This document shows positions 1,225 through 7,598 of a stretch of 64,000 bases of DNA, in pieces. The notes under the pieces were generated by a model, which worked only from the letters and a program-made list of their open reading frames with translations, searched no databases and was not told the origin of the DNA. The DNA is from Microthyrium microscopicum. Lineage: Eukaryota > Ascomycota > Dothideomycetes > Microthyriales > Microthyriaceae. Each line of letters opens with the position of its first letter. Within the stretch, counting starts at the first letter, position 1. The position numbers were made by a program, and so were the translations under genes. Location: positions 2,181,345 through 2,245,344 of the forward strand of contig MU004237.1 of assembly GCA_010405405.1 (NCBI GenBank). Direction: 5' to 3'.

Positions 1225-4200
1225 ATGGCGTCCTTGGGCTCATTCCAAATATCATCGACCCAAACCGCCCTGGCCATAGTCCCCTTAGCAACATACACTG
1301 AATCCGTCGACACCTTCCGCGCCAAACACGACAAAGCTCACGGCAAATGGCCATCACATATCAACCTCATATACCCCTTCGTCCCACCCTCCCAACTAAC
1401 ATCCGCAATCGCCTGCATAAAGCACAGTCTCACTGAAGACTGGATAGGCGGTTTCAACGTCAATTGCGATTCACTGGGTGTCTTCCGACATGCCAAGAGC
1501 GCAACGCTATTTCTACAACCGCATGAAACGAGCGCTGAGACGTTGATACGGCTCAGGAAGGTGTTGGTGAATAGCTTGGGATGTGCGGAGAATGAAGGCC
1601 TGCATGATGGGGAGTATCGGCCGCATTGGACGGTTGGGCAGTCTGCGGTTACGGATAAATCGGTGGAGGGATTGAAGGATAAGGCGAAGGGGCTTGTTGG
1701 TGTTGATTGGGATGTCGTATCGCTGGTTGTGCTGAAGAGACGGGGACCTGGTGGGCCAATGGATATTGTGGAGCGGTATGTGTTCTTGTGTGGGGTGGTT
1801 TGAAGGTTTGAGATTGACTGACTATTGGTTAGGATTGAACTAGGACCAGTGATACAGAAACAGGCTCCTGAGAAGCAGTTGGGCTGGCTTGCAGAGGCTT
1901 CTTCAAGTCCTGCGGCTCTACCTACACCGAAGAACTGGCATGAATGCTACCATTATCGAACTGATGGGGACTGCTGGGAACCATTCACCGCATCGGACAG
2001 CAAAACAGCGACCATATCAGAGGTTGTCGTGAGCAGCATCAATTTGATGGTCGAAGAGTACGCAGCACCATTCGAAGAACGATTTCCTCTTGTGATCAAA
2101 GCACTGGAGAAACTACAATACCTCTCGAGCAAACGTTCAAGCATACTCTGCCTGCAAGAAGTGAGCCCAGAAATGCTCCCAATAATTCTCAGTCATCCCG
2201 CAATTCAGGAACTATATCCTTACTCAACACACTCGCTAGAGTCCCGGCTTCCCAGTCATCGAAATCAGATCAGTCTCTCTTCCTTACCTTTCTCGCGTTA
2301 TCATATGAAGTTTGAAGAGCCACATAAGGCAAGTGTCATCATCCGACTCAGCGGCACAAACACTACTATCGCCAACGTTCACTTAACCAGTGGGCTAACA
2401 GAAGAAGCTGTAACGAGAAAAACATCTCAGATGATTGTTCTGACTAGGTTCTTGGAACAGAATGAGCTGTTGGAATCCACAATATTCGCAGGAGACTTTA
2501 ATATCTCAACGTCACTTGCAACCATTCAAACTGCCATCGAAAAGGGACTCATTAAACCAGACACTGCACAAAATCTCCAATCAATCATCGACTTGGATCA
2601 TTGGGAAGATTCTTATCTAGAAGCCAATGATAGTGCCCACGACCTCGATGATGAGGAGACTGGAGAAGATGGTGCTACGTTCAACCCCCAGGAGAATTCG
2701 TGGGCTGCAATGAGCAGAGCGCCAGTCGATCGCCGTCCACAGAGATTTGATCGCATTATTTATCGAAGAAATGGTCTGATCAAGGCTGTCGACTATGGCA
2801 TGACCACCCTCTCATCGGCGGATGGCAAGTTTGCTAGTGACCATTATGGTATCTTTGCAAAACTGCAAATTGCTGAGCCTAAACCACGGCCACTGGCTTC
2901 ACTCGCTTACGATATGTCCAAAGTACAGCTGGCTGAGCATAAGATTGAGATCGTTCAAGACGATACCGATATATCAGAGCTACTCAACGCGTACCTTCCA
3001 ACTGACGAAGACCGAAAGGCAAGAGAGAAAGCTCTTGAAACTCTTACCGCTGGCCTCAATCAAGGCAATTCGGCAGAAAGCATCATACTGGCTCCTCTCG
3101 GAAGCTATGCACTAGACACCTACCTCGCCAACTCCGACATCGATGTCCTGGCAATCGGCTCTATCACTTCTCGAGCCTTCTTCGACTCCATAATCGCACA
3201 TCTGAAGTCTATCGAAGGTGTTTCCAACTCGTCACTCCATCTAATCAACTCCTTGGTGCAAATCGTTGAAGTGACCATCAATGGTATCAAAATCGATATT
3301 CAATATTGTCAGGCGTTCGAACTTCTTGAGGCACACTGGGCGAACCTTCAAACTCCGCTTAAGAAATTAGTGTTCGAACAGGAAGTAGTCGAGTCCCTGC
3401 GGCCTACATCGCTCCGCCCTCTAAACACATATCGCGATGCGGCATACTTGCTCAACACTATGCCATTCATCGACTCATATCGCACTGCCCATCGGCTCCT
3501 TGCACTATTTATGCAGCGCCGCGGGCTATACTCTGCAAGATACGGTTACTTGGGAGGCATCCATCTGTCACTTATGCTGAATCGAGTCACCAAACTTGCC
3601 GCTGCCCAACTAGACGACCACAAGGAATCCAGTCCATCGACTCTCTCTCCAGCGACCCTAGTGCGCACCTTCTTTGGCCACTATTCCAATATCGACTGGA
3701 CCAACATCGCCATCACTGACCCGACCCTCCCACCCCGCTACTCAGAGAAACGGTGCACGCGCGAACCAGTTCTCATCCCCTGTCTCTTCGTTCCGTCAGC
3801 ACGCCCAAATGTGGCAGCCAGCTGCTCACGCCTATCGGCCGATGCTTTCACGACCGAATTCAGCGCCGCTCGCGATCTCCTGGCCGATGGTGCCTGGAGC
3901 CGGGTCTTGCGGAACAGCAGTGAAAGCATCAGCGATTTCCTGAACGGCAGTGAACTCTTCATCCGCGTACACCTATCACTGTGGAACATGCACACCACAC
4001 CATCCAGCGATGTTCGTTCCGCCATTGGCACACTAGAGGCTAAGATGCCGTCCCTTCTAGTAGCCCTCAGCAAAGTTGAGGACATGAGTTCTCGCGTGTG
4101 GCCAGCGCGCTTCGCACAGCCTGCAACGAATGCAGATGTGAATATGGATGAGGCGAGCGGATACTGGCTTGTCGCTGTCAGTCCTCGCCACGATGAGTTC

Positions 4201-4776
4201 GTGGATGTGACAGACGAGCGCAAGAAATTGATCCATGGGAAGGTCTTGTCTGCCGCACGCGCGTTTGAGCGCACTCTGAAGATGGCTCACGCGCTTGACG
4301 CGGAGCGGTCCTTTGTGCAGGTCGAGGTAGTAGGCAAGAAGAAAATTTGGGATATGGGGTTGGAGATCGATGGACGAGATTGGCCTTCTTATGCCAAACA
4401 AGACTCAGGCTCTCCTACCACATCTACTGCTACAGCTACACAAACATCAAGGGCGAGTGAGACTTCTGAACGGAAGGTGGAGCACGAGTCAGGAAGTTCA
4501 GGCAAAGGCAAACTACGCCCCGTACAAGACATCATTGCCCGGATCAAGTGGGATGAAGACTACGAAGTTAAAGACTTCGTGGTCGGGTACGAGGATCGAT
4601 TTTATGGGGTTATGGAGATTGATTTGGCAAGCTGGAAGACTGAGCAGACGGATTTGGAGTTCATTCCTAGCCATCGTATTGTGTGGATTGGTAGGAAGGG
4701 AGGCGCCAAAGTCTGGGATCGGAGATTAAGACTTGATCGTGTATTTGGGAGTGGTGCTAAGAAAGCTGAGGAGTAG
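1225..4776 (+). CDS. Four-domain RNA-repair type protein: 2H, EEP, nucleotidyltransferase, MJ1316
   Basis: Two exons (1225-1775 and 1833-4776) flank a 57-nt GTATGT...GGTTAG intron and give 1164 aa. The ATG at 1225 (ACCAATGG) was chosen because the first domain starts just after it; an in-frame ATG at 1084 would add an unconserved leader. Domains in order: (1) a 2H phosphoesterase/2'-5' RNA ligase-like domain, about residues 1-184, with HINLIYPF and HWTVGQ; (2) an endonuclease/exonuclease/phosphatase domain with LQEV (E about 293), GDFN (about 394-397) and SDH (about 509-511); (3) a poly(A)-polymerase/OAS-type nucleotidyltransferase with GSY...SDID (about 597-612) and a helical C-lobe; (4) an MJ1316/DUF504 domain, about 1074-1156, with IKWD, GYEDR and PSHRIVWI. 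From family knowledge, 2H and MJ1316 domains act on RNA with cyclic-phosphate ends. The inferred role is end-healing or tailing of damaged or processed RNA. The catalytic motifs look intact. The substrate is unknown. Confidence 0.93.
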
Positions 4777-5463
4777 ATATGTAACGATACTCTCTACGGG
4801 CAACCAATAATTGAGGCAACCAATAATTGACTTTCAAGAACTAATGACTTCTTCTGAGTTTGGTAAAATCAAGATCTCCTAAGTGCCGTCAACTACTTCC
4901 TTAGCCATTTGGCAATGAGGTGTTCCAAACCTCTGTTGCCTTCTTGAGATTATAAATCTTTTTAGAGCCTACAGAAAGCACATGAAAAGATGATGCTGCG
5001 ACTCAGGAATCAGGAGTAGATTTTGGTACCAGCAAAGTACTTGGCGACTGAACCCACGGACTTACTTCACGCCAAGGCAACGATTCAGCAATCATGAAAG
5101 CAATTTCATGGGCATACCTAAGCCACCTGTTGATGTAAATGTGAGTCAGGTCATCAAGAACGATAACAAAAAAAATTGATAACGACTCATATAAGGCTGA
5201 CAAGGCTGAAAACGACTTCACAAGTGACCAATCATAGGGCCTGAATTAGTGATCGGCCCGAATATTTGGCAACATCATCCGAGCCCCACTAACGTTTGTT
5301 CTTTCCCCACCATCAACGCCAAAACGTTCTCGAGCTCTAGAAAGACGACGCTGCCTTTGACACGCCTTTATTGTCTTGGTCGCAACTCTTGTAGTCTGAT
5401 ATCTATCATCTTCCACGCCTCAGAGACCTTGGCCAGCAAGCCTATTGCCTACTGAACGACACC
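4777..5463. other. Intergenic region upstream of RLI1
   Basis: No gene is supported here. It contains the 3' flank of the RNA-repair type gene, a 16-bp tandem duplication (listed separately) and the RLI1 promoter and leader. The pyrimidine-rich tracts around 5290-5400 fit a fungal transcription start region. Confidence 0.5.
4799..4830. repeat. 16-bp perfect tandem duplication
   Basis: The 16-mer GGCAACCAATAATTGA occurs twice head to tail (4799-4814 and 4815-4830), just after the stop of the RNA-repair type gene. Each copy contains a CCAAT pentamer, but the position in a 3' flank makes a promoter role doubtful. A recent local duplication is the simplest reading. Confidence 0.85.
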
Positions 5464-7598
5464 ATGCCTGACAAATTGACGAGGTAGCATTCCGCTCATG
5501 CGTTGGGCATAAGCAATGACTGACTGAGCTTTTAGAATCGCCATTATCAATTCTGACAAGTGCAAGCCGAAAGTATATGCCCTGCCTAAATTGTCGAAGA
5601 ACGTAGCTAACTGTTCCCAAGAAATGTCGACAAGAATGCAAGAAATCTTGCCCCGTTGTTCGTACTGGAAAACTATGCATTGAGGTTGAGCCAACTTCCC
5701 GCATCGCCTTCATTTCTGAACGGCTATGTATTGGATGCGGTACGTACTCCTCAGCTACTTTGTACTCTGAGGTACAGAGAATAGCATACCCTGCTGTTCA
5801 TACATTTTGACTTCTTCCGAACAAAGACTAACAAATATCAGGTATCTGCCCCAAGAAATGTCCTTTTGATGCCATTATGATCATCAATCTCCCTACCAAT
5901 CTCGATTCCATGATTACCCATCGATATTCGGCCAACAGTTTCAAACTTCATCGTCTTCCTATGCCTCGACCCGGACAAGTACTTGGATTGGTTGGAACAA
6001 ACGGTATCGGCAAGAGTACCGCATTGAAGATTCTTTCTGGCAAACTGAAGCCAAATTTGGGGCGATTTGACAATCCTCCGGACTGGGAAGAGATCCTTCG
6101 CTATTTCAGAGGCTCGGAGCTACAAAGTGCGTATATTATAAATCTTAGGAACTGTGATGCTCCAATTGGACCGAACCCCGGCACTTGCATCGCAGTCTCC
6201 TATTACGGACCGAGAATGAAGTACTAACAATCATTAGACTATTTTACCAAAGTCCTCGAAGACGATCTCAAGGCCGTTGTCAAACCCCAATATGTTGATC
6301 AAATTCCAAAAGCTGTTGCGAAAAGCGCAGACAAGACTGTTGGAGGTCTCATCAATGCTCGAGCCCAGACCTCACAAAAGGAAGAAATCATGGAGGTTTT
6401 GGAGTTGAACCACGTCTTGGACCGTGAAATTGGTCTACTCTCTGGTGGAGAGCTTCAGCGATTCGCTATTGCCACAGTCTGTGTTCAGAAGGCTGACGTT
6501 TACATGTTTGACGAGCCATCTTCTTTCCTTGATGTCAAGCAACGTCTCAATGCTGGTCGTATTATCCGTAATCTTCTTCGACCTGATGACTATGTCATTG
6601 TGGTTGAGCACGACCTTTCCATTCTGGACTATCTTTCGGATTTCATCTGCGTTCTCTACGGAAAGCCAGCCGTTTACGGTGTCGTTACTCTACCAGCTTC
6701 AGTTCGTGAAGGTATCAACATCTTCCTCGATGGCAATATCCCAACTGAGAATTTACGATTCCGTGAAGAGTCTCTACAATTCCGCATTGGCGAAGCCGGT
6801 GAGGAGTTCCTCATTGATCATGATCAGGCATATGGCTATCCAGCCATGACAAAGACTCTTGGCGGCTTCAACCTCACTATCGAGGCTGGCCAATTCACCA
6901 ACTCTGAAATCATCGTCATGATGGGTGAAAACGGAACAGGCAAGACCACGTTCTGTCGAATGCTTGCAGGAGCCGAACAACCGGATGGAACTAAGAAGAT
7001 GCCTGGTCTCAACGTCTCCATGAAGCCTCAGAAGATTACGCCCAAGTTTCAAGGCACGGTTCGACAACTCTTCTTCAAGAAGATCAAGGCCGCCTTCCTC
7101 AATCCACAATTCCAAACCGATGTTTACAAGCCGCTCAAACTCGACGATTTCATTGACCAAGAAGTCCAAAACCTTTCCGGTGGAGAACTTCAACGTGTCG
7201 CCATCGTCCTCGCCCTCGGTATCCCCGCTGACATCTATCTCATCGACGAGCCGTCCGCCTACCTCGACTCTGAACAACGTATCATCGCCGCCCGTGTCAT
7301 CAAGCGCTATATCATGCACACCAAGAAGACCGCCTTCGTCGTCGAGCACGATTTCATCATGGCTACATACCTCGCCGATCGCGTCATTGTCTTTGACGGT
7401 GAGCCAGGCATCAAGAGTCGTGCGAATTCACCCGAAGGTCTATTGACAGGATGCAACAAGTTCCTCAAAAACTTGGATGTTACGTTCCGGCGTGATCCTA
7501 ACTCGTATCGCCCACGTATCAACAAGGCCGGCAGTCAGATGGATCAGGAGCAAAAGACTGCAGGCAATTACTTCTTCTTGGAAGATAACGATTCATGA
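5464..7598 (+). CDS. RLI1: RLI1/ABCE1 ribosome-recycling ATPase
   Basis: Five exons (5464-5483, 5536-5572, 5622-5739, 5842-6126, 6238-7598) give 606 aa, close to the usual ABCE1 length of about 600-608. The N-terminal ferredoxin-like part carries the eight cysteines for two 4Fe-4S clusters ([29 protein letters not shown]). It is followed by two ABC ATPase domains with Walker [10 protein letters not shown] and GENGTGKTT, and two signature motifs [12 protein letters not shown]1 splits ribosomes after termination and is essential and cytosolic. The first three exons are very short, so the Fe-S domain is spread over four exons and would be missed by a simple open-frame search. The intron phases all fit. 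Nothing is missing. Confidence 0.97.

Follow-up and report, generated by a model that had tools for sequence, protein, structure and literature searches.

A Microthyrium microscopicum gene joining 2H, EEP, poly(A) polymerase-type and MJ1316 domains has bacterial relatives, part of which lie beside RNA ligase and kinase genes

In Trl1, T4 Pnkp-Rnl1 and Pnkp-Rnl-Hen1, cleaved RNA ends are healed by phosphoesterase modules that work together with a kinase and a ligase. Here, we analysed a stretch of 64,000 nucleotides from the fungus Microthyrium microscopicum (contig MU004237.1 of assembly GCA_010405405.1, positions 2,181,345 to 2,245,344; hereafter, the window) and in it a gene whose product joins a 2H domain, an EEP (endonuclease/exonuclease/phosphatase) domain, a PAP (poly(A) polymerase)-type nucleotidyltransferase and an MJ1316 domain in the order 2H-EEP-PAP-MJ1316. 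Unlike the three systems above, this fungal chain contains a polymerase and MJ1316 and neither a ligase nor a kinase.

MJ1316 is said to bind RNA cyclic-phosphate ends and to have diverse eukaryotic fusions to RNA-repair domains, as stated in a 2019 paper that cites a 2016 survey (PMC6514570). These eukaryotic fusions resemble the fungal chain in that MJ1316 is joined to RNA-end enzymes. The survey behind them is reportedly that of Burroughs and Aravind (2016), in which the fungal fusion, and possibly its bacterial counterpart, may already be listed; LENG9 is a eukaryotic MJ1316 fusion. To our knowledge, the reading of cyclic ends by MJ1316 rests on prediction. In the literature searched, judged by title and opening abstract, we found no published work on this fungal fusion, functional studies included; earlier surveys may describe the architecture.

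Among solved structures, the EEP domain is closest to TDP2 (tyrosyl-DNA phosphodiesterase 2), which was solved as a separate enzyme acting on 5' adducts, whereas here a domain that is TDP2-like by sequence and fold sits in a fusion. With canonical nuclear PAP (Pap1, PAP alpha/gamma), the chain shares three Asp residues, the central and RNA-binding parts, and the fold; unlike canonical PAP, it has Ala at the positions of bovine K228 and N239 and is fused to phosphoesterases. Finally, bacterial MJ1316-EEP-2H-PAP proteins (e.g., those of loci L001, L004, L018 and L056 in our collection, in which L denotes loci and G genomes) are homologous to the fungal chain by profile and, like it, have all four domains and the catalytic residues, but their domain order differs and the fungal window lacks a ligase/kinase relative.

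Domains and splicing of the fungal chain

The gene runs on the + strand from an ATG at 1225 to a stop codon that ends at 4776 and, when spliced, encodes 1164 aa (Table 1). A sequence-only reading had placed it at 1225-4776 with a 57-nt intron at 1776-1832, coordinates that proved exact, and had described one chain with 2H, EEP, nucleotidyltransferase and MJ1316 domains; this description is borne out by Pfam for 2H and MJ1316 and by profiles of bacterial relatives and a structure model for EEP and PAP, and the motifs quoted in that reading are present in the chain. In Pfam, the 2H family PF13563 matches residues 26-174 (E 3.9e-21; 76.1 bits against a cut-off of 27) and the MJ1316 family PF04457 matches residues 1079-1147 (E 1.3e-16; 61.4 bits against 26.3); these are the two detections on which the reading had been staked beforehand. 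The profile search of each segment that it had proposed gave a divided outcome, with 2H and MJ1316 passing, while EEP (PF03372, 18.7 against 24.5 bits), NTP_transf_2 (18.7 against 21) and PAP_central (26.8 against 27.1) stayed under the Pfam cut-offs and were confirmed by the other two approaches. When domain profiles built from 76 bacterial relatives (described below) were run on the fungal chain, 2H scored 118 bits, PAP 92, EEP 65 and 34 in two stretches, and MJ1316 51, with alignments that take in the active-site motifs; the best score in a control with 200 shuffled chains per profile was 4.5 bits.

At the level of single residues, the 2H motif test found H134-x-T136, and the first 2H motif reads H45-x-N47. 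All eight catalytic or metal residues of the EEP domain, the set of N, E, H, D/N, D and DH, are present (N254, E293, H367, D405, N407, D490, D520 and H521). The canonical PAP motif was found as G607 S608, D619, D621 and D672, and the polymerase part matches bovine PAP at E 8e-12 (phmmer). In the MJ1316 domain, we recognised WD (residues 1090-1091), P-x-HR (1129-1132) and VWDR (1144-1147); ahead of the conserved His-Arg, the fungal chain has Ser, whereas 74/76 bacterial relatives have Trp.

Compared by itself, the EEP domain of the window reaches TDP2 at just E 0.084 (phmmer), while a profile made from it and 46 bacterial EEP domains matches TDP2 at E 5.2e-23 and nocturnin, CCR4, PDE12 and ANGEL2 at 1e-6 to 6e-5 (ANGEL2, 5.5e-5). 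A structure model of the EEP-PAP part, predicted from an alignment with 46 bacterial rows, has a mean pLDDT of 72.9; exon 2 predicted without an alignment gave 32.6 and was of no use. In Foldseek, the best matches of the EEP-PAP model are PAP gamma (E 1.6e-18), bovine PAP, yeast Pap1 and Pla1, down to E 1.6e-16, and the alignments with PAP gamma, yeast Pap1 and Pla1 span 504-550 columns including gaps and take in the RNA-binding part. CCA-adding enzymes follow from 1.7e-10, and the best non-polymerase match is TDP2, from E 1.3e-9 and with a TM of 0.74 by target length. Judged by these profiles and the modelled fold, the EEP part is nearest TDP2, and canonical nuclear poly(A) polymerase is the match of the polymerase part. 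A PDB sequence search with the 2H piece and the MJ1316 piece of the window, each alone, gave nothing credible, and no relatives of the exon-2 chain or of its single domains were found in the viral sequence collection.

If the intron is read through, the protein stops after 192 aa with its 2H core whole, and its 2H score of 116 bits is just 7 bits under the 123 bits of the spliced form; exon 1 by itself scores 115. Such a product would suit a reading in which 2H is a separate protein from an intron-retained transcript and exon 2 belongs to another gene, but exon 2 alone could be translated in frame from residue 256 at the earliest, which lies two residues beyond Asn254 of the EEP domain, so that its product would lack this Asn; moreover, the 2H profile spans the splice junction, and the same domains are fused in 75/76 long bacterial relatives. 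The 192-aa read-through, the missing early ATG in exon 2 and the junction-crossing profile together favour one chain, as far as the DNA itself can tell, and we consider two separate proteins very unlikely. For comparison, four introns that we placed in the neighbouring Rli1-like gene with the aid of protein sequence measure 49, 52, 102 and 111 nt and have similar ends.

Bacterial relatives and their ligase and kinase neighbours

The four-domain fusion is not fungal only. In tblastn searches of plasmids, the MJ1316 piece matched seven records, five of which were also matched nearby by the 2H piece and one of which, an Embleya plasmid, was matched by the EEP piece between MJ1316 and 2H; by Pfam, a Calothrix plasmid and two Embleya plasmids encode proteins with MJ1316, EEP, 2H and PAP. 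Searching GTDB genomes with an alignment built from four of these proteins returned 375 matching stretches; confirmation left 339, from which we retained 79 distinct loci: by title, 30 actinobacterial, 25 myxobacterial/deltaproteobacterial (one of them titled Proteobacteria only), 21 cyanobacterial, two acidobacterial and one Bacteroidota. The extracted protein exceeds 850 aa at 76 of the 79 loci, and 75 of these 76 carry the complete set, arranged as MJ1316-EEP-2H-PAP, the exception being L043, in which MJ1316 falls outside the chosen frame start. The remaining three, L049, L052 and L070, are short or frame-interrupted gene copies; L052 as extracted has MJ1316 and PAP only. In a subset of 46 of the 76 proteins, thinned at 75% identity, Pfam at E 0.001 detected 2H, EEP and PAP_central in 46/46 and MJ1316 in 45/46.

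The active sites are conserved as well. The EEP columns N, E, H, D, N, D, D and H are invariant in 76/76 bacterial relatives, both 2H His residues are present in 76/76 and the three PAP Asp residues in 76, 75 and 74 of 76, while the first 2H motif is HxN, as in the fungal chain, in 53/76 and HxT in 23/76. All conserved catalytic columns of the bacterial relatives are present in the fungal chain. In the best BLAST matches, identity between fungus and bacteria is 23-43% by domain; because the nearest bacterial group differs from domain to domain, we claim no donor.

MJ1316 is patchy among bacteria, occurring (with the centre genome counted) in 2/117 cyanobacterial, 3/396 actinobacterial, 63/193 myxobacterial and 1/198 Bacteroidota genomes; 47 of 64 myxobacterial matches lie in open frames of at least 895 aa, a count by frame length and not by domain content. 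Several variants were seen along the way. Two Streptomyces plasmids (L006:6716-7621 and L007:4298-5158) encode a protein of two domains, MJ1316-2H, that lacks EEP and PAP, and the relative in L005 is shortened and has a Ku gene about 2.5 kb away. Calothrix brevissima NIES-22 (L009/L001 and L028) has two long MJ1316-bearing genes, on a conjugative-typed plasmid and on the chromosome, and in genome G663 (C333:6281-9775) two MJ1316 frames of more than 1000 aa, about 3 kb apart on one strand, suggest a tandem pair.

In part of its range, the four-domain module is placed beside RNA repair. Neighbours were sought by tblastn with actinobacterial and cyanobacterial queries, which a divergent ligase or kinase could escape. 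A kinase gene lies directly upstream on the same strand at 37/79 loci, and an RNA ligase is present too in 34 of these 37. Such partners were found at 29/30 actinobacterial loci (27 with ligase; at L055 and L062, the contig starts inside the partner gene) and at 8/21 cyanobacterial loci (seven with ligase, the eighth being the short copy L052). Pfam detected RNA_ligase in 5/5 ligase-bearing proteins scanned (two actinobacterial and three cyanobacterial; E 8e-33 to 8.5e-38). In actinobacteria, the partner is a single ligase-kinase protein (RNA_ligase with AAA_33, 2/2 scanned) and stop and start codon overlap by one base in 17/29 cases (a gap of -1 nt), while in cyanobacteria the partners are a ligase and a separate kinase with AAA_33 and HD domains (3/3 scanned), at gaps of 35-363 nt, L052 excepted. 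The ligase/kinase gaps at L013 and L014 are 152 and 178 nt. The cyanobacterial layout resembles the HD-Pnk healing enzyme of Runella. Because two layouts occur in two phyla, chance adjacency is unlikely, though the loci are not independent. The ligase/kinase genes are apparently co-transcribed with the four-domain gene in part of the bacteria.

Adjacency is the only ligase evidence that we use. A genome-wide RNA ligase, found in 23/23 genomes, was dropped because the family matches 6/14 control genomes too; this count also lacked matched genomes without the four-domain gene. In the same family search, a ligase match lies near the MJ1316 match in Streptomyces G018, and, among the matches listed, none was near MJ1316 in the seven genomes G006-G012 or in Calothrix G001, both of which agree with the tblastn count. 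In the conserved-neighbour clusters of myxobacterial loci, judged without a family scan, we recognised no repair-like gene, and bacterial ligase and kinase queries returned nothing credible from the fungal window (best E 0.94).

Possible roles at RNA ends

From the domains and catalytic residues, the bacterial homology and the ligase/kinase linkage, we infer a set of chemical steps and their order, a substrate and a fate of the RNA, and we give about even chances to the resulting model of a single-chain enzyme that heals and rebuilds RNA 3' ends. In this model, MJ1316 would help to hold an RNA end made by a metal-independent ribonuclease, the 2H domain would open its 2',3'-cyclic phosphate, a Mg-dependent phosphoesterase in the form of the TDP2-like EEP domain would take off the remaining phosphate or trim to a free 3'-OH, and the PAP-type domain would add nucleotides, by which lost ones are restored or the RNA is tagged for decay. 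In bacteria, the kinase would supply the 5'-phosphate and the four-domain protein the 3'-OH for the ligase. In the fungus, because a ligase is absent from chain and window, the product would be handed to another enzyme, candidates being the Trl1 ligase for sealing in trans or the exosome for decay of the tailed RNA.

Published work contains precedents for these steps. Such ligases cannot directly use the ends that metal-independent RNases leave, so that a kinase and phosphoesterases are required, and nucleotidyltransferases of another polymerase family that lie beside RNA ligases are predicted to replace lost nucleotides before ligation (PMC7824862). The EEP enzyme ANGEL2 hydrolyses terminal 2',3'-cyclic phosphates in vitro (PMC9525292), and tRNase RloC removes the wobble nucleotide (PMC2610378). 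The sequence-only reading had gone further in proposing a self-contained RNA end-healing or tailing machine; healing or tailing gains support from the bacterial adjacency (29/30 actinobacterial and 8/21 cyanobacterial loci), but self-contained repair does not fit a chain with neither ligase nor kinase. Nor could its stepwise scheme of recognising, opening, trimming and adding be upheld: fungal and bacterial chains arrange the domains differently, and therefore the order along the chain does not give the order of action.

A number of observations weigh against the model. Neither a ligase nor a kinase neighbour was found at 42/79 loci; by tblastn, which may miss divergent genes, such neighbours were absent from 25/25 loci of the myxobacterial group, 2/2 acidobacterial loci, the one Bacteroidota locus and 13/21 cyanobacterial loci, and the fungal chain itself has neither enzyme, with none detected in the window. 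The Ala residues that phmmer aligns with bovine K228 and N239, two ATP-contact positions of PAP, mean that ATP use is not assured. The EEP domain stands closer to the 5'-end enzyme TDP2 (E 5.2e-23) than to ANGEL2 (5.5e-5), so a 5'-end role is possible. Finally, the fungal side is represented by one sequence.

The nearness to TDP2 is what suggests a protein that cleans both ends, in which the EEP domain would treat 5' ends that carry protein, tyrosine or adenylate adducts (e.g., abandoned App-RNA ligation intermediates) and the 3' end would be the business of 2H and PAP. The profile favours TDP2 far over nocturnin, CCR4, PDE12 and ANGEL2, Foldseek concurs, and an adjoining ligase could leave adenylated 5' ends; on the other hand, the TDP2 complexes listed are mostly with DNA, with one RNA/DNA product among them, and 2H, PAP and MJ1316 point to 3' ends, so that we hold this to be rather unlikely. 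We rate at the same low level a pure decay factor, in which 2H and EEP would trim as exonucleases in the manner of USB1 and CCR4 and the tails would mark RNA for the exosome with no repair. The missing ligase and kinase in chain and window, the 42/79 bacterial loci without such neighbours and the RNA-binding part included in the PAP match would all suit this role, but the linkage at 37/79 loci and an EEP domain nearer TDP2 than CCR4 speak against it.

Oligoadenylates offer another precedent, as OAS, 2H enzymes and PDE12 make or break 2-5A, and the polymerase might by analogy make, and 2H and EEP break, oligoadenylate-like second messengers. L009 gives matches to CBASS oligonucleotide cyclases below the cut-off (NCBIfam E 5.9e-8, 32 against 200 bits; PADLOC E 1.9e-7), and there are weak Nrap PAP/OAS-like matches (E 0.011 in the window; 3/46 bacteria). 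Against this, neither NCBIfam nor PADLOC has a cyclase match in L056 or in the exon-2 chain of the window, the model's fold matches canonical PAP best, RNA-binding part included, and such a role sits badly with MJ1316 and with RNA ligase neighbours, which makes a nucleotide-signal enzyme highly improbable. Returning to 3'-end healing and rebuilding, it is tempting to speculate that the fungal and bacterial chains are one repair module that clears a blocked 3' end, puts lost residues back and hands the RNA over for sealing, and that in fungi this module, exchanged between bacteria and fungi and reshuffled, might salvage ribotoxin-cut tRNA or rRNA with Trl1 ligating in trans; we regard this wider proposal as possible yet doubtful.

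Features of the window and implications

Genes in the window include those for an Rli1-like ABC protein, a mitochondrial carrier, RIC1 and kinases, and introns are short, as would suit a filamentous fungus. Just past the stop codon of the four-domain gene, at 4799-4830, the 16-nt unit GGCAACCAATAATTGA forms a perfect tandem pair. Upstream, positions 1-346 look like the end of a small intron-bearing gene, perhaps for a Cys-containing secreted protein. Rfam and tRNA scans of the window found none.

Table 1. Positions in the window of the four-domain gene, its domains and motifs, and the gene downstream
Feature	Position	Strand	Content or basis
Exon 1	1225..1775	+	2H (2'-5' RNA ligase superfamily, PF13563) domain
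Intron, 57 nt, GTATGT...CTGAC...TAG	1776..1832	+	Sequence signals; homology across junction
Exon 2	1833..4776	+	End of 2H, linker, EEP, PAP and MJ1316 domains
2H motif H45-x-N47	1357-1380	+	Residue check
2H motif H134-x-T136	1624-1638	+	Residue check
EEP domain, TDP2-like	1999..2880	+	Bacterial EEP profile, 65 + 34 bits
PAP-type nucleotidyltransferase with central and C-terminal RNA-binding parts	2914..4446	+	phmmer, Foldseek
MJ1316 (RNA cyclic group end recognition) domain	4513..4743	+	Pfam; bacterial profile, 51 bits
Rli1/ABCE1-like gene, several short introns	5464-7598	+, directly downstream	Pfam ABC_tran in last large exon

The fungal protein is a variant of known RNA-repair fusions, to which we add the counted ligase linkage and the reshuffled, ligase-free fungal order. 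In this way it is tied to a module of bacteria that is accompanied in many genomes by a ligase and a kinase, and a "predicted RNA-end enzyme" becomes a concrete, testable set of reactions. If the model of 3'-end healing and rebuilding is true, fungi would have, in addition to Trl1, a route for rebuilding RNA ends, and repair could extend to damage in which nucleotides are lost, such as that by tRNase RloC.

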